From Aquimarina spinulae (GTDB lineage Bacteria > Bacteroidota > Bacteroidia > Flavobacteriales > Flavobacteriaceae), in contig NZ_CALSBP010000002.1 of NCBI RefSeq assembly GCF_943373825.1, forward strand, positions 186,001-250,000: a stretch of DNA of 64,000 nucleotides. Direction: 5' to 3'. Shown here piece after piece: positions 53,371 through 59,310 of the stretch; positions within the stretch are counted from its first letter, which is position 1, and every line of letters starts with the position of its first letter. The notes under the pieces are model-generated. The model was not told where the DNA came from. It was given only the letters and a program-made list of their open reading frames with translations, and did not search any database. The position numbers were made by a program, and so were the translations under genes.

Positions 53371-54132
53371 CTATGAGTTTACCCATTTCTTAAACTCTGT
53401 GGCTTTGGCTTTACTTACAACTATACGTTCTTTTGATACTGGGTTTATATTTATAATCAATTTTCCGTTGAAATAATGCTTAATATTAGAGATTGCATTT
53501 TTTTGAATTATAAATTGACGATTAACTCTATTAAAATTTTCAGGGTTTAATTCCTCTTCTATATCCTCAAGTTTCTTGTCTATAATATACATCTTATTTT
53601 CGGTAGTGACTGCTTTAACTACTCCTGTATCAATATAAAAATAGGCTATCCCTTCGGTATTAACGGGTATTAATTCATCTCTTTGATGCACCAAATATGT
53701 AGTTTTATATGATTTTGTTTTTGCCTGGAGTAATTGTAACATTCCACTCATTTGAGCATTCATAGCATCATTTTCTCCGGATTTAGTTTTAAACTTTTTC
53801 AACGCTTCTGCTAATTCTTCCTCATCTATAGGTTTAAGCAAATAGTCTATACTATTTACTTTAAATGCTTTGATAGCATATTGATCATAAGCTGTTGTAA
53901 AAATGATGGGGATTTTTATATCTATTTCATCAAAAATTTCAAAAGAAATTCCGTCTGCCAAGTGAATATCCATAAAAACTAATTCTGCCTGATTAGGGTC
54001 AGAAAAATAGTCAATTACAGATTTTACAGAGTCTAAAACTTTTAAAATCTCAATATCAGGATTAATAGAGTTGAGCAAAAAAGTAAGGTGCTCACTTGCT
54101 GCTATTTCGTCTTCTACTAGTACTACTTTCAT
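53371..54132 (-). CDS. LytTR-type response regulator
   Basis: 253 residues. Receiver domain with VLVEDE, phospho-acceptor Asp in LVFMDIHLADG (about residue 57) and LLKPIDEEEL; C-terminal LytTR DNA-binding domain (residues about 145-250) with NFNRVNRQFIIQKNAISNI. LytTR proteins bind pairs of 9-10-bp direct repeats at about 21-bp period. Such repeats, three at a time, are present upstream of three nearby operons (56829, 57305, 59260). It is cotranscribed with the kinase, five bases after its stop. Confidence 0.93.
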   Translation of the reverse strand: MKVVLVEDEIAASEHLTFLLNSINPDIEILKVLDSVKSVIDYFSDPNQAELVFMDIHLADGISFEIFDEIDIKIPIIFTTAYDQYAIKAFKVNSIDYLLKPIDEEELAEALKKFKTKSGENDAMNAQMSGMLQLLQAKTKSYKTTYLVHQRDELIPVNTEGIAYFYIDTGVVKAVTTENKMYIIDKKLEDIEEELNPENFNRVNRQFIIQKNAISNIKHYFNGKLIININPVSKERIVVSKAKATEFKKWVNS

Positions 54133-54137
54133 ATGGT

Positions 54138-55244
54138 TTAGCTTAAAGGTAGTGTTACACTAAATGTATTATTAGCATTACTAATACTAATGTGTTGTTT
54201 TTTCAGTAAAAAATATCGCTTATCTAAATTCATTAGTCCGTTACCGGTACTATCTACAAAAGAGGTTCTTGGTCTTATTATATTTTCGACACAAATCGCT
54301 TCTTCTTTACAAAAAACCCTGATTTCCAAAGGATTATCCTCTGAAATCTCATTGTGTTTTACTGCATTCTCTACTAATAATTGTAATGCTAATGGAGGCA
54401 CCTCTTGTTGCAAATACATATCATCTATAGCAATATCAATTATAAATCGATCTCTATACCTGGCTTTTATTAAATGAATATAACTATTCAAAAATTTCAA
54501 CTCTTCTTTTAAGGAAACTAAATCCTTATCCCCACTTTGCAAAATATATCTGTACATAAAAGATAGCTTGTTTACAAAGGTTGTGGCCTCTTTATTATCC
54601 CGAATAATTGAGTTTAAAGAATTTAAAGAGTTAAAAAGAAAATGAGGGTTGATTTGATTTTTTAATGCTGTTAATTCCTTTTGAAGATTTTGTTGTTTTA
54701 GTCTTTCATTTTCTAAAAGATCTTCTTGATGAAGGATCTGATATCTAAGAATTCTAGCGATAAAAAGAGTTATTAATAAAACAACAAAATAAATAAAATA
54801 GATCAACCCTTTCTCGGGTTCAGATAATGATTCTCTTACGAATAAAGGGTATACAATAAAAAATAATTGAACAACTCCTAAAAAAACAACTGCGTTAAGA
54901 ACTATTGTTATACTACTTCTTAATAGGATAGAATACTCTGCATACTTATTTTTCCAATTGGCATTTAATTGAAGTATTAAAAACGAAAGTATGAAAATAA
55001 AAAGTACACGTATAATGATGTCTTTTATAGATACCTCGGCAAAAGATTCTATTAATTTATCTGTTAACTCAAATAATGACAACGTCCTTGGTAGGTTAAC
55101 AAGTACAGAGACAAGCAGTGCTATCTTTAAAATTACAGTGTGTTTAACTTTTTTTAAGCCCAAGATGAATAGTAAAGTTCCTAATTTTTGATTTTTAAAT
55201 TTACGGAAAATTAAGCTGAAAGGATATTCTAATTTCTGAAACAT
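54138..55244 (-). CDS. LytS-type (His_kinase) sensor kinase
   Basis: 368 residues. About four membrane segments in the first 180 residues, without an obvious extracellular sensor loop. The cytoplasmic kinase has NPHFLFNSLNSLNSII with the phosphorylated histidine, and a minimal ATPase domain with LALQLLVENAVKHNE (N box). This is the class paired with LytTR regulators, here the next gene. The signal is unknown; membrane stress is a possibility given the targets. No clear promoter was identified. Confidence 0.92.
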   Translation of the reverse strand: MFQKLEYPFSLIFRKFKNQKLGTLLFILGLKKVKHTVILKIALLVSVLVNLPRTLSLFELTDKLIESFAEVSIKDIIIRVLFIFILSFLILQLNANWKNKYAEYSILLRSSITIVLNAVVFLGVVQLFFIVYPLFVRESLSEPEKGLIYFIYFVVLLITLFIARILRYQILHQEDLLENERLKQQNLQKELTALKNQINPHFLFNSLNSLNSIIRDNKEATTFVNKLSFMYRYILQSGDKDLVSLKEELKFLNSYIHLIKARYRDRFIIDIAIDDMYLQQEVPPLALQLLVENAVKHNEISEDNPLEIRVFCKEEAICVENIIRPRTSFVDSTGNGLMNLDKRYFLLKKQHISISNANNTFSVTLPLS

Positions 55245-55268: not shown

Positions 55269-55303
55269 GAAGAAGCCTCTGTATGGGAATTAGAGGCTTC
55301 TTC
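55269..55303 (-). terminator. Terminator between the secreted-protein operon and the kinase gene
   Basis: Perfect 12-bp stem GAAGAAGCCTCT/AGAGGCTTCTTC with an 11-base loop. On the minus strand it follows the stop of the gene at 55329 and is followed by TTTAAC. It separates that operon from the kinase-regulator pair. Confidence 0.7.
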
Positions 55304-55328: not shown

Positions 55329-55658
55329 TTAACTACTATACAGATCAAAACCCTGAGGTATATATGCCTTCACTTCTATATCATAGATAATCACTTCTTC
55401 CTCTCCTACATCGTGTATATCGATGGGTTCTATTAGCTTTTCTTTGGTTGTCCCAAACACATCTTCAAAACTCATCACCGGTTCTAGCTCTTTTTTTATC
55501 AATTCGTCGATTTCTTTGTTTAATTCCTCTTCAAGGATAGTTTCTGTTTTAATTTCTTTACTAAAAGATATATAGCTTTCTACTTTTTCTTTTCCAGAGG
55601 TTAATATCATTAATCCTCCTATAAGCATGGCTATTGTTATTATGTTGGATACTTTCAT
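55329..55658 (-). CDS. Small acidic exported protein
   Basis: 109 residues. An N-terminal hydrophobic segment (SNIITIAMLIGGLMILTSG) acts as signal or anchor, followed by an acidic helical stretch with repeated E-E-L-N-K-E-I and a C-terminal beta part. No family recognised. It is the last gene of the four-gene operon starting at 56736, 22 bases after the lipoprotein gene. Confidence 0.68.
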   Translation of the reverse strand: MKVSNIITIAMLIGGLMILTSGKEKVESYISFSKEIKTETILEEELNKEIDELIKKELEPVMSFEDVFGTTKEKLIEPIDIHDVGEEEVIIYDIEVKAYIPQGFDLYSS

Positions 55659-55680: not shown

Positions 55681-56337
55681 TTATTGAATAAGCTCTTTTA
55701 CTATTTTTTTAGAAAAATCCTCAGATGTGGTACTCAAGGTTTCTGGGTTATCTAAAACGGTGGTAATCACAGAAAGTAATTGTTTTTCTTCGGGTAGAGA
55801 AAGGTCATACACCACTGTTTCTAGTATGTACTTTTTTCCTAAAGAGGTCACTGTTGTAATTGGATCTGATTGTATATATACAGTACCATAATATCTATAG
55901 AACCCTCCGTAATATCCTCGTCTATAAAATGTTGGGTAAGTATTTAATTGATATGTAGTACCCGTTGTAATGGTTTCTGTGTATTCCTGGCAATCTCTTA
56001 ATACGGTCATTATTACCACATCTATTCCACTTTTCTTTAACTTTTCTTTTATTTCTTTTACTTGATCTTTACTCATTTCTTTTGTAGATATAGACTCAGG
56101 AAAAACCACAAAGCTTTCTACAGATTGATACCCTTTATGATTGAGAGTCGATACCATATCTTTTTCAAATCTGGTTCTTACAACTTCATTATCTGTTTTA
56201 CTAACTACCATAATTTTTTTTTCTTTGATACCTGATGTTTTTACATCTTTCCATGAGTCTGTAACTTTCACAGCAGAACAACTAAACAAGAGTGTCATTC
56301 CCATCGTGATCCCTAATATTTTATTTATTATTTTCAT
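55681..56337 (-). CDS. Lipoprotein, DUF4136-like
   Basis: 218 residues. Signal with lipobox (ITMGMTLLFSCSAVKVTDSW: L-F-S-C). The fold after it (KKIMVVSKTDNEVVRTRFEKD and a conserved VIMTVLRDC) resembles DUF4136 lipoproteins. The middle has a tyrosine/glycine-rich loop (YRRGYYGGFYRYYG). Envelope protein of unknown function, in the LytTR-linked operon. Confidence 0.75.
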   Translation of the reverse strand: MKIINKILGITMGMTLLFSCSAVKVTDSWKDVKTSGIKEKKIMVVSKTDNEVVRTRFEKDMVSTLNHKGYQSVESFVVFPESISTKEMSKDQVKEIKEKLKKSGIDVVIMTVLRDCQEYTETITTGTTYQLNTYPTFYRRGYYGGFYRYYGTVYIQSDPITTVTSLGKKYILETVVYDLSLPEEKQLLSVITTVLDNPETLSTTSEDFSKKIVKELIQ

Positions 56338-56365: not shown

Positions 56366-56503
56366 TTAAATGAATAAAAAGGTGCTTTCATCATTCTCAT
56401 AGCTGGAGATAAAATCTTTATGATTTTTATACCCTTCATTTTGTAAAATGCTATTCCAAATCTTTTTTGAAATGTTTCCTAAAATTGATTGTATTGTTTT
56501 CAT
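56366..56503 (-). CDS. Candidate small protein, 45 residues
   Basis: Open frame ATG at 56503 to TAA at 56366, beginning MKTIQSILGNISKKIWNSI and ending with a hydrophobic FLFI. It lies 44 bases after the stop of the gene at 56548 and 28 before the lipoprotein ATG, on the same strand, in an otherwise closely packed operon. The MKTI start and AT-rich leader look like real translation starts nearby. No family recognised. Confidence is limited by size. Confidence 0.5.
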   Translation of the reverse strand: MKTIQSILGNISKKIWNSILQNEGYKNHKDFISSYENDESTFLFI

Positions 56504-56547: not shown

Positions 56548-56736
56548 TTAATTTCTAATTGCCATACCTGCAGCAGTACCATATTCTTCTAGTGTATTAT
56601 ACATACTCTTTACCCATACTTTATATCTCTTGGCAAGTACAATCAAAAAATGAATGGTTCTATTCCTATTTGTTATTGTGTTTGCTGTATATCCACTTCT
56701 ATGATTGTATACTACTCTTAGATTTGTTGTCTCCAT
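56548..56736 (-). CDS. Small protein, 62 residues, first gene of LytTR-linked operon
   Basis: Begins METTNLRVVYNHRSGYTANT, basic and rich in Asn/Arg/Tyr, with a short hydrophobic patch (TIHFLIVLAKRYKVWV) too short and charged for a firm membrane helix. No signal peptide. The ATG is 53 bases after a -7 box with the three-repeat operator, which supports it as a real gene. No family recognised. Confidence 0.55.
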   Translation of the reverse strand: METTNLRVVYNHRSGYTANTITNRNRTIHFLIVLAKRYKVWVKSMYNTLEEYGTAAGMAIRN

Positions 56737-56788: not shown

Positions 56789-56879
56789 CAAATGTACCTC
56801 GGGATCAGAGCAGAATTATTGACTTTTTAGGTGAAGCATCCAAAATCGAAAGTGAAATAACCCAATAGTACAGTGAGGT
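56789..56879 (-). promoter_or_regulatory. Promoter with three-repeat LytTR-like operator (56736 operon)
   Basis: On the plus strand: CAAATGTA (minus-strand -7 box TACATTTG) at 56789-56796, 32 bases, then AGGTGAAGC at 56829, AAGTGAAAT at 56850 and CAGTGAGGT at 56871, period exactly 21. No -33 TTTG at the usual place, so activator dependence is likely. The same 91-bp layout is found at 57265 and 59220. Confidence 0.7.
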
Positions 56880-56950
56880 GTTTTTAAGTTGAAGACAAGG
56901 TTATTGCGTTTCTTTTTACCATATGATTTTAATATATCTATCCAATAAAA

Positions 56951-56979
56951 AAGATCCTTAACAGCTAGTTAAGGATCTT
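56951..56979 (-). terminator. Terminator of the gene at 57001
   Basis: Perfect 12-bp stem AAGATCCTTAAC/GTTAAGGATCTT with a five-base loop. A on the plus strand just before it gives the U run. It separates the 57225 gene from the 56736 operon. Confidence 0.85.
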
Positions 56980-57000
56980 ACACATAAGGAATACATTTTT

Positions 57001-57225
57001 TTACTTTTCTTCAGTTTTAAAATCATTTTCATTAGTGATCGATGATATCTGAACACCTATATCGGGTTCTGTATACATATTATCATTTGTATCATTTACT
57101 ATTGCTTCATACGCACCAGTTGTTACTTCAAAATGAGTATATGTTTCTAAATCATCTTTTATACTTGTTCTTAAAAAAAAGCTTATTAAAATACCGGTTA
57201 TAATGTATGCGCTTATTATTCTCAT
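57001..57225 (-). CDS. Small membrane-anchored or exported protein
   Basis: 74 residues: one hydrophobic helix (IISAYIITGILISFFL) then an acidic hydrophilic tail (NDTNDNMYTEPDIGVQISS). The tail would face the periplasm. No family recognised. Single gene with its own three-repeat promoter (57265) and its own terminator, good evidence for a real gene. Confidence 0.6.
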   Translation of the reverse strand: MRIISAYIITGILISFFLRTSIKDDLETYTHFEVTTGAYEAIVNDTNDNMYTEPDIGVQISSITNENDFKTEEK

Positions 57226-57264
57226 ATTTTCTAAGTTTTAGATTATCAATTCGGGTTATACGAT

Positions 57265-57355
57265 CAAAACTAATGCGTATTTCAAGTCTTTACCTGCTGT
57301 TTATAAGTGAAGTAACTATAATCAACAATGAAGCCTCTATATTCCTATTTGAAGT
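57265..57355 (-). promoter_or_regulatory. Promoter with three-repeat LytTR-like operator (57225 gene)
   Basis: -7 box TAGTTTTG (plus strand CAAAACTA, 57265-57272), 32 bases, then AAGTGAAGT at 57305, CAATGAAGC at 57326 and ATTTGAAGT at 57347, period 21. The ATG lies 40 bases past the box. Confidence 0.65.
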
Positions 57356-57703
57356 ATTTATGAAAATAGAGAACTCCTCAAAATCTATGATCTCTATTTG
57401 TGATCAAAAACTACTTTTTTAACCTAAATCATGGTTAAGAGGTCATCGAATGATAACTAGGAACGTAAGTTCGATGTAAGTCTGGAGGGCTATAAAAACC
57501 GTCAAATCGAGTGATTTTTCGAAATGCAATGAAGAAAAATTGTATCGAGCTTAGATTTTTGTTGGAAAACAGCTTGTTCTCGATACTTTTTCTTGTCTTA
57601 GCAAGCCAAGAAAATACTCGAACTGACGGGCATTTTACTACTTCGAACTCAGGTCAGAATTAAAAATTACAGATACTACATCGGTATATAATACATGTCA
57701 TAC
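57356..57703. repeat. Dispersed-type imperfect palindrome in intergenic DNA
   Basis: Within this gene-free stretch, 57499-57630 forms a large imperfect inverted repeat. The outer arms are CCGTCAAATCGAGTGATTTT and, on the other strand, CCGTCAGTTCGAGTATTTT; the inner arms are GTATCGAGC and GTATCGAGA. Sequences with these GTCAGTTCGAGT/TATCGAGAA cores are, as I recall, common intergenic repeats in Flavobacteriaceae. No coding potential. Confidence 0.6.
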
Positions 57704-57744
57704 AAAACACCCTTTGTTGATTTCAACAAAGGGTGTTTTTAATA
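57704..57744 (-). terminator. Terminator of the 59179-57765 operon
   Basis: Stem AAAACACCCTTTGTTGA/TCAACAAAGGGTGTTTT, 17 bp with minimal loop, at 57704-57739; a T run follows on the plus strand and a short one on the minus strand. It is placed just past the stop of the gene at 57765. Confidence 0.8.
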
Positions 57745-57764
57745 AAAAACTATACCTAAACCTC

Positions 57765-58499
57765 TTACCTCAACCGTCTTTTCTTACTAAGATCATATTC
57801 GTTACGTTCGTTTCTATCGTCATAACGCTCTCTTCTATCCTCTCGTCTTTCACGATTATCTTCTGCTAGTTCTCTTTTTGTTGCCATAATATCTTCATTA
57901 AGAGATTGTACAAATTCTTGGATCAGTTTTTTATTCGCAATTGATTTCTCTATCATTTCGGGATCAAATGAAAAGTTAAATGTTTTTAGTTTTTTCAGTA
58001 ATGATGCCTGATATTCTGCCCGTGCAATTTGTGCCTTAAAATCTCGGATATCATCCCTCCTATCTCTTTTATCATCTCGTTTATTGGCTTGATCCCTCGC
58101 CAAATCTTTTTGATCATCACGTCGATCATATCTACCTCTGTTGCTGTCATCTCTATCTTTTCTAATCTCTCTTCTATCTGATCTAATTTCTGCCGAGCTT
58201 TGAGCAATCTCTATTCTTGCTTGTTTTGCTTTGGCCTCACTCTGCTTTACCTCCCTTATCATATCGGTAATAACATCTTGTTTCAGCATATTAGTTTTTG
58301 ATAGATCATGGATATCAAACGCTTTTTTAAATGCTACTATTTTTAGCTGTAAAGCTTTCAATTCTTTAATATCTCTTTCCAGGTTTCTTTTTCCTTCAGC
58401 AATCTGTCTTGTATTTTGGATAGCTTCTTTTGCGTTCTGCGCATTCACACTACTACTTACAAGTAATAGGACTAGTATTAGATTGTTAATCGTTTTCAT
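57765..58499 (-). CDS. Secreted, highly charged coiled-coil protein (RDD-rich)
   Basis: 244 residues with a signal peptide (NLILVLLLVSSSVNAQ). Residues about 20-100 are coiled coil; the middle and the end are extremely rich in Arg and Asp (RSDRREIRKDRDDSNRGRYD and RREDRRERYDDRNERNEYD), likely disordered or helical polyampholyte. No enzyme motif. It lies 27 bases after the DUF6515 gene and shares its promoter. Periplasmic; role unknown. Confidence 0.75.
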   Translation of the reverse strand: MKTINNLILVLLLVSSSVNAQNAKEAIQNTRQIAEGKRNLERDIKELKALQLKIVAFKKAFDIHDLSKTNMLKQDVITDMIREVKQSEAKAKQARIEIAQSSAEIRSDRREIRKDRDDSNRGRYDRRDDQKDLARDQANKRDDKRDRRDDIRDFKAQIARAEYQASLLKKLKTFNFSFDPEMIEKSIANKKLIQEFVQSLNEDIMATKRELAEDNRERREDRRERYDDRNERNEYDLSKKRRLR

Positions 58500-58525
58500 C
58501 GGTTTTATAAGATTTAAAGTTGTAT

Positions 58526-59179
58526 TTATTTATTTTCTTTATGTACATGAACCACCTCATAAGCTGTATTACCATCAAAGGTGGATACTCTTTTGTATAA
58601 AATATTATTGTAGTCATAGAATATTTTACCATCGATTACTACTTCTTCTGCATCTTTATGAATAGTTGTCAAAAGTGTTCCTACAGGAGGCTGGGTTACT
58701 TCATATTTTTGTTCTTCAGAAGAAGACTCATTAGTATCTACATAATATACTCCGGAGTGATAGTAATATATCGATGGTCCTACCATCACTTGTGTATAAC
58801 CTGTAGGTAAAACAGTTATTCTAAACCCAACCGGAGGCAATACTGTTACATATGCATCATTATACACTGTATAGTAGATACCAGCATAATAGAAATATGG
58901 CAAACCACGATATACTACACGAACATGGTGTCTGGGTAATGTTCTGATAACTCTATGGTGTCTTGGATACCTGTAATGTGGACTCCTGTGAATGGGTTGT
59001 GTTCTGTATCGATCTCCTCTGTAATGATTCGTTCCTACAGATCGTTTGGTATTATAATTACGATGCGTATTAGTCCCTCTGTTCCTTTGACCTTCATTTC
59101 TTTGTGCCTGAATCGTATCTGTACCGAGAAATGAAACAAGGATCAAAATAATTCCTGTAATTCTGTATATAGTTTTCAT
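58526..59179 (-). CDS. DUF6515-type secreted protein
   Basis: 217 residues from the ATG at 59179 (MKTIYRITGIILILVSFLGT). An in-frame ATG at 59239 lies upstream of the -7 box and is not used. Signal peptide, then an Arg/His/Asn/Tyr-rich low-complexity region (RYRTQPIHRSPHYRYPRHHR), then repeated YYY.G.YYV units (FYYAGIYYTVYND, YYYHSGVYYVDTN) with a valine/proline-rich PPVGFRITVLPTGYTQV, the DUF6515 pattern. Envelope or secreted protein of unknown role; first gene of a two-gene operon. Confidence 0.85.
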   Translation of the reverse strand: MKTIYRITGIILILVSFLGTDTIQAQRNEGQRNRGTNTHRNYNTKRSVGTNHYRGDRYRTQPIHRSPHYRYPRHHRVIRTLPRHHVRVVYRGLPYFYYAGIYYTVYNDAYVTVLPPVGFRITVLPTGYTQVMVGPSIYYYHSGVYYVDTNESSSEEQKYEVTQPPVGTLLTTIHKDAEEVVIDGKIFYDYNNILYKRVSTFDGNTAYEVVHVHKENK

Positions 59180-59219
59180 ATGATTTGTTTTTATAGTTAA
59201 TCTCTTGGATTTCTTTGTA

Positions 59220-59310
59220 CAAATGTATCTGCAATCCATACGGTTTTATACCGATTATATATTGAAACGGGTAAATTTGAAGGTGAAACGAACTAATCCT
59301 GAAGTGAACT
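59220..59310 (-). promoter_or_regulatory. Promoter with three-repeat LytTR-like operator (59179 operon)
   Basis: -7 box TACATTTG (plus strand CAAATGTA, 59220-59227), 32 bases, then TATTGAAAC at 59260, AGGTGAAAC at 59281 and AAGTGAACT at 59302, period 21. The ATG at 59179 is 41 bases past the box. The divergent cyclase gene starts 66 bases on the other side. Confidence 0.72.

Follow-up and report, generated by a model that had tools for sequence, protein, structure and literature searches.

Sites of LytTR regulators are described, in passages of the published account, as two repeats of 9-11 nt separated by spacers of 11-13 nt (PMC4847170). Regulators of this type are numerous in the group to which Aquimarina spinulae (Flavobacteriaceae) belongs. 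We analyzed 64,000 nucleotides of its genome (contig NZ_CALSBP010000002.1, positions 186,001 to 250,000 of the forward strand; hereafter the window), in which three minus-strand promoters, P1, P2 and P3, share a 91-bp element with three phased repeats beside the genes of a LytS-type histidine kinase (HK) and a LytTR response regulator (RR). Judging from sequence and its conservation, these elements are very probably the operators of that pair, which would activate three operons for envelope proteins, its own operon included.

Three-repeat LytTR operators have been published for RcoM1 and CoxC, which share with the present system a LytTR domain and a triplet of short direct repeats spaced by about two helical turns, RcoM also activating from upstream of -35, according to parts of the report (PMC11347149). 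Their triplet spacing of about 21 bp recurs in the window. The same parts describe RcoM and CoxC as one-component CO regulators, with the sensor fused to the LytTR domain and repeats of the TTCNNGCA type (PMC11347149), whereas the Aquimarina system has a receiver domain and a separate kinase rather than a one-component fusion, a TTCAC core (repeat consensus TTCAC YT, unlike TTCNNGCA) and a Bacteroidota -7 box at a rigid distance of 35 bp. Since the geometry is that of RcoM and CoxC while the kinase-regulator pair, the core and the promoter type differ, the element could be regarded as a variant of the known LytTR triplet operators. It offers a second setting, besides RcoM/CoxC, for the question why some LytTR proteins use three repeats and not two.

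Two further systems are close. YpdA/YpdB of Escherichia coli likewise combines a LytS-type kinase with a LytTR regulator, and its tandem GGCATTTCAT sites have similar GG...TTCA lettering; as far as the consulted sections go, it differs in having two sites and one target gene, yhjX (PMC4847170), against three repeats and three operons, the pair's own among them, in the source genome. LytTR regulatory systems (LRS) have direct repeats, mostly with 12-bp spacers, about 10 bp upstream of -35 (PMC6193735, in part). They share the placement of repeats just upstream of the promoter and autoregulation, and a Bacteroides example, TCCGGTATTCA-11-ACCGGAAATCA, has a repeat-to-TATCTTTG distance of 34 bp when 11, 4 and 19 are summed. 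LRS differ in carrying two repeats and a membrane inhibitor instead of a histidine kinase, according to the same excerpts (PMC6193735); the source system has a kinase.

The general features of published LytTR sites are found here: the repeats are 9-mers with 12-bp spacers, the cognate receiver-LytTR regulator is encoded with its target (operator upstream of the pair at 54 of 62 loci), and the repeats lie just upstream of the -35/-33 region, TTCA preceding TAnnTTTG by 35 bp in 80 of 91 cases. This agreement in repeat length, spacing and placement supports the operator reading. For the family, 20 LytTR regulators are listed for Flavobacterium johnsoniae UW101 in the consulted part of PMC5395568, and LytTR and kinase mutants of this species are reported in that of PMC10197871; the regulator treated in PMC5399024, which its available text shows to be OmpR-type, was set aside. 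Searches of the open-licence PubMed Central (PMC) literature yielded neither a mapped operator for such a kinase-regulator pair in the family nor a description of this regulon or operator. The sequence-only reading, which could match the regulon to no described system, stands as far as regulon and operator are concerned, and not for the triplet layout, which is known from RcoM and CoxC. With an exact, testable site and a small defined regulon, the locus could provide a route to assign regulons to other LytTR pairs.

The three promoters and the adjacent pair

P1, 56789..56879, minus strand: promoter with -7 box TACATTTG at 56789-56796, TTCA cores at 56832-56835 (proximal) and 56853-56856 (middle), and CTCA at 56874-56877 (distal)
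P2, 57265..57355, minus strand: promoter with box TAGTTTTG at 57265-57272 and TTCA cores starting at 57308, 57329 and 57350
P3, 59220..59310, minus strand: promoter with box TACATTTG at 59220-59227 and TTCA cores starting at 59263, 59284 and 59305
HK, 54138..55244, minus strand: LytS-type membrane histidine kinase (PF06580) with four hydrophobic stretches by hydropathy
RR, 53371..54132, minus strand: response regulator with receiver (PF00072) and LytTR (PF04397) domains; proposed activator

On re-reading of both strands, the coordinates, TAnnTTTG boxes, 32-base gap, 21-base period and 91-bp length first reported for the elements all proved exact, and in promoter orientation the pattern common to the three is YTCA-N17-TTCA-N17-TTCA-N35-TAnnTTTG. 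The repeat had been written RRGTGAAxx, with a TGA core; the core common to the three elements is TTCAC-like. In P1 and P2 the middle and proximal repeats have an RG dinucleotide six bases upstream of their core, which is absent from every repeat of P3 and from all distal repeats. The first start codon lies 52 nt (P1), 39 nt (P2) and 40 nt (P3) from the box.

The domains found in RR and HK agree with the regulator and kinase proposed at 53371-55244. No sensor domain was recognized in HK by Pfam. Residue D55 of RR is invariant among 12 aligned sequences, and RR misses the NCBIfam equivalog cut-offs for LytR (101.6 against 375 bits) and BtsR (88.6 against 246 bits). The pair had been described as merely adjacent to the promoters; it lies downstream within the predicted P1 transcription unit.

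Occurrence in the window and the genome

The window has three copies of the strict form of the pattern, whereas 300 dinucleotide shuffles of it average 0.0; for a loose form (three TCA, any gap of 25-45) the figures are three and 0.017. Across the whole genome (6,239,435 bases) the pattern matches exactly at three sites, nowhere with one mismatch and at seven sites with two; those seven have matrix scores of -14.1 or lower (P1, 100.2; P3, 68.1; P2, the weakest of the three, 48.6). A calibrated sequence model built from 40 aligned operators, P1-P3 among them (R1), again recovered P1, P2 and P3 (E 5.1e-20, 7.0e-11 and 8.2e-15, respectively), the next place having E 0.03, when 150 of 5,997 first-look candidates were scored. 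At the sensitivity of this search, the predicted regulon in the source genome is these three promoters. Three phased TTCA alone gave 18 matches against 4 for the reversed pattern; two of the 18 are P2 and P3, and the other 16 were ruled out as operators because their matrix scores are -18.2 or lower. A repeat search based on identity missed the element because little beyond the cores is conserved.

The three promoters lie within 2.5 kb of one another, a proximity that would suit chance or the recent duplication of one promoter. The sequence between the cores is divergent, shuffles yield none of the elements, and the layout is conserved in other genera, so that such an origin is practically negligible.

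Conservation and linkage to the kinase-regulator pair

HK was searched in 56 relatives, and the stretches around its orthologues were examined for the operator. Zero-mismatch operators lie near orthologues in ten genomes and one-mismatch operators in G004, G007 and at the HK locus of G010; four loci, and a fifth at a contig edge, have none. In G010, the HK locus is at 4.38 Mb and the operators of the DUF6515 genes (the family of the gene behind P3) are at 0.86 Mb, about 3.5 Mb apart on a contig of 5.35 Mb, or about 1.8 Mb if the contig is circular. Because of this distance the regulon is not always self-contained, and the earlier description of a complete, self-contained regulon agrees with the three promoters of the source genome and not with G010.

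Within the genus, the exact pattern is present in 18 of 66 genomes and the reversed pattern in none; the match in G067 (C50) was rejected as an operator, as it scores as chance (matrix -21.1). Among the 33 genus genomes of the HK search, the source genome included, an R1 operator is present in 15/15 with an HK match of E <1e-60 and in 1/18 (G019) without; at E 1e-100 the counts are 13/13 and 3/20.

A blind search with the exact pattern, independent of any gene, found it in 24 of 397 family genomes, the reversed control matching in four (by table reading). With RR orthologues defined by E <= 1e-85, which are present in 36 of the 397, the pattern occurs in 18/36 RR-positive and 6/361 RR-negative genomes (Fisher p 1.5e-16; 17/35 and p 1e-15 with the source genome left out), p-values that need caution because the family genomes are related. 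The six RR-negative matches were rejected as chance-like (matrix -9.6 to -28.7), and in 15 of the 23 matching genomes other than the source an RR orthologue lies within the stretch retrieved around the match. The remaining 18 RR-positive genomes and two further contigs were held out and scanned with a matrix made from 34 non-redundant sites of other loci: 15 of the 20 RR loci score above 12 bits, whereas none of 40 reversed strands does (highest score, -12.5), and five loci, one at a contig edge, have no operator. By either test, exact pattern or matrix, 32 of the 36 RR-positive genomes carry the operator.

The best 80 LytTR loci of a collection of named genomes, whose nearest names include Aquimarina, Kordia, Maribacter, Arenibacter, Winogradskyella and Poritiphilus, were treated likewise. 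Matrix matches occur at 10/12 loci with RR identity of >=60%, the two misses both being Maribacter, at 2/68 of lower identity and at 0/80 when reversed; with three training-set loci left out, 7/9 compare with 2/68 (p 5e-7). The operator lies <3 kb upstream of HK on the same strand at 54 of 62 HK loci and on the opposite strand at 4/62, a set in which some loci are near-identical and many also gave training sites. Absence of the pattern from orthologous promoters, which the sequence-only reading had named as a ground for its own rejection, was looked for and not borne out; besides the three exact genome sites, the spacing recurs across many genera beside orthologous LytTR pairs.

Several points weigh against assigning the operators to this pair. 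R1 finds the operator in no more than 28 of the 66 genus genomes, and 8/62 HK loci, two of them at contig edges, have no upstream operator. The genus cut of E 1e-60 was chosen after the list was known, kinship among genomes inflates the association statistics, the matrix and R1 were trained on pattern-selected sites, many from loci then counted, and in some cases training and held-out genomes belong to one genus. The genome-wide excess of phased TTCA triplets (18 against 4) includes only two operators. Many R1 matches of the phylum scan outside the genus, including those in five genomes of one other genus of the family, lack an RR or HK match in their retrieved 1.5-kb flanks. The source genome contains at least 35 LytS-type kinase matches (35 of 69 first-look candidates were scored), and therefore crosstalk among these relatives is possible.

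That a paralogous LytTR regulator of the same genome binds the repeats, the adjacent pair being only a co-regulated target, would be in keeping with the 35 scored kinase matches and with the paralogous pairs of G004 and G029, which also adjoin such operators. Presence of the operator follows this particular orthologue, both in the genus (15/15 against 1/18) and at named loci (7/9 untrained against 2/68 less related), which makes a paralogue an unlikely owner and favors the adjacent pair.

Anatomy of the operator

Twenty-nine held-out sites above 12 bits were compared (their list omits L265 and the matchless L268; per-site counts are unaffected). At least three of the four core bases are present in 28/29 distal, 27/29 middle and 27/29 proximal repeats, and exact TTCA in 16/29, 23/29 and 19/29, respectively. 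A fourth repeat was sought at these sites and found at 0/29 in exact form and at 3/29 with three of four bases. At these 29 sites the RG dinucleotide upstream of the core was seen in 26 of the middle, 22 of the proximal and 1 of the distal repeats, so that the three cannot count as equivalent. The box agrees with TAnnTTTG in 23/29. By an operator-only matrix, TTCA lies 35 bp from the box in 80, 34 bp in 10 and 56 bp (35+21) in 1 of 91 cases, which include training and near-identical loci. The first genes of relatives begin mostly 20-55 nt past the box.

The Bacteroidota promoter box is placed at -12 to -5 in the available text of PMC9723704, and by arithmetic the cores then lie at about -51/-48, -72/-69 and -93/-90. 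No -33 element is conserved among the 34 non-redundant sites, since every column between the A-tract end and the box stays at or below 0.55 bits. The absence of a -33 element in the 32-base gap, reported earlier for the three promoters, thus extends to relatives and fits activator dependence.

Repression would be the alternative, the regulator shutting the promoters as the three-repeat protein CoxC does (PMC11347149, in part). The CoxC sites overlap -35, whereas the sites here stop about 10 bp short of -33, on its upstream side, and the -33 element is not conserved, as at activator-type LytTR promoters in the sections seen of PMC6193735; repressor sites are accordingly a highly improbable reading, and activation by the pair is preferred.

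Genes of the locus

o62, 56548..56736, minus strand: 62-amino-acid protein with the conserved C-terminus LE..G.AAG.AIRN
45-aa ORF, 56366..56503, minus strand: 45-amino-acid (aa) open reading frame (ORF), C-terminus ENDESTFLFI kept in relatives
lipo218, 55681..56337, minus strand: lipoprotein-like, with an N-terminal hydrophobic stretch and a model resembling PelC, GNA1162, CsgG and LptE folds
o109, 55329..55658, minus strand: small acidic protein with an N-terminal hydrophobic stretch and one C-terminal repeat copy
Hairpin between o109 and HK, 55269..55303, minus strand: -20.1 kcal/mol, z -4.85; possible attenuator or partial terminator
o74, 57001..57225, minus strand: 74-amino-acid protein with an N-terminal hydrophobic stretch; orthologues in G001, G026 and G088
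Hairpin after o74, 56951..56979, minus strand: terminator-like, with a T tail
DUF6515 protein, 58526..59179, minus strand: PF20125 (E 4e-28, above the Pfam cut-off), with an N-terminal hydrophobic stretch
o244, 57765..58499, minus strand: highly charged protein with a signal-peptide-like start by eye

From P1 the order is o62, the 45-aa ORF, lipo218, o109, the hairpin, HK and RR, and P1 is proposed to drive the first four genes and, through the hairpin, HK and RR. The strong hairpin at 55269-55303 lies between o109 and HK, and P1 may therefore supply the regulator genes at reduced strength; it is missing from the terminator list, whose loops were limited to 3-8. In G031, o109-HK-RR stands under its own operator. 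P2 is proposed to drive o74, and P3 the DUF6515 gene and o244. The DUF6515 gene was taken to start at 59179 rather than 59239, as the latter lies upstream of the promoter box. The lipoproteins and secreted or small proteins found are in line with the small secreted, membrane or unnamed products described at the outset; the hydropathy scan found no hydrophobic stretch in o62 or o244.

The structure model of lipo218 (pLDDT 72.4, 20 sequences) matches PelC of Geobacter (E 1.7e-7) and chains of LptE, GNA1162, DUF4136 and CsgG, with modest query TM-scores of 0.30 to 0.48 for chains with E up to 3e-4. These matches are presumably outer-membrane-associated lipoproteins or their relatives. Its match to the MXAN_6521/LA_1396 lipoproteins (TIGR04455) is weak, 23.9 being below the NCBIfam cut-off of 60. 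The Pfam entry of DUF6515 gives the family no known function. The tiny o62 and 45-aa ORF, with their conserved C-termini, precede lipo218 again in several relatives. A nucleotide cyclase gene (PF00211; 59376-60452), with N-terminal hydrophobic stretches in its product, is transcribed away from P3 and is kept as a neighbor in several relatives.

Proposed mechanism

HK would sense a condition, probably of the envelope and perhaps envelope stress, and phosphorylate RR, as its domains suggest. RR protomers could then bind the three TTCAC-like sites, spaced by 21 bp on a single face of the helix. Between the proximal core and TAnnTTTG there are 35 bp, which puts the end of that core about 10 bp upstream of the -33 region, a position from which contact with RNA polymerase might stand in for the missing -33 element and turn on the three operons. 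HK and RR lie downstream of the hairpin in the putative P1 operon, an arrangement that may provide positive feedback.

Wider occurrence and paralogous regulators

Of 68 less related LytTR loci, 11 score above the reversed-control maximum (5.6) with the operator-only matrix; in seven of these the match starts no more than about 70 bp from the RR end. If an unrelated, non-LytTR activator bound the repeats and merely neighbored the pair, neither these similar repeats just past RR genes (7/68) nor the family-wide linkage would be expected, and we consider such an activator a very remote prospect beside the adjacent LytTR pair. Three of the seven loci are from Alistipes and one from Tidjanibacter, with 21-bp-phased repeats just past the RR gene, a hint of a wider operator class; two others (L275, L277) are Aquimarina paralogues with operator-like repeats near the RR end.

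In 296 phylum genomes, R1 gave matches at E <= 0.001 in 20. Those in G731, G678 and G036, of one other family of the order, lie beside RR or HK genes, and that in G049 does not. No RR or HK match was found in the retrieved 1.5-kb flanks of six non-Aquimarina family members or of nine genomes outside the order, and a phylum-wide operator class is therefore only a lead. In G197, three to four operator-like elements are arrayed in tandem over about 1 kb close to a contig edge (L204:8560-9570), with no RR or HK match in the retrieved stretch.

A secreted acidic protein with tandem LGFDTxxYLPxGFNxY repeats (L255:7820-8341 and relatives) is encoded between the operator and HK in many genera; o109 carries one such copy at its C-terminus, where other genera have it in tandem. 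It has 625 homologues; among 120 listed, the names are 'hypothetical protein' and three carry a type IX secretion system (T9SS) sorting domain (PF18962). Its structure model is of low confidence (pLDDT 55.7), and the protein might serve as a propeptide or as a partner of the kinase. The strict motif occurs upstream of HK at 23/62 loci, a count that does not capture degenerate copies, o109 in L109 and L111 being examples; since lipo218 also sometimes precedes HK, the repeat protein is not established as universal. It is doubtful, if conceivable, that phased triple LytTR sites at a fixed box distance are a general Bacteroidota activation layout and that a co-transcribed acidic repeat protein tunes the kinase, forming a self-amplifying envelope or peptide circuit in many marine genera.

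Elsewhere, operator-like sites lie upstream of DUF6515-o244, o62-45aa-lipo218, DUF4251 proteins, an LpxR-like outer-membrane protein, a DcuA/B transporter with a fumarase/aspartase-type lyase, a CitMHS transporter and a lipocalin-like protein; several of these predicted assignments depend on weak sites or on greedily chained operons and should be taken as no more than leads. In G029 (L127:11359-11462) and G004 (L124:10926-11014), an operator of the same class lies directly 3' of a paralogous RR gene (47-49% identical), the weaker one being in G004 and that of G029 being upstream of the DcuA/B transporter.

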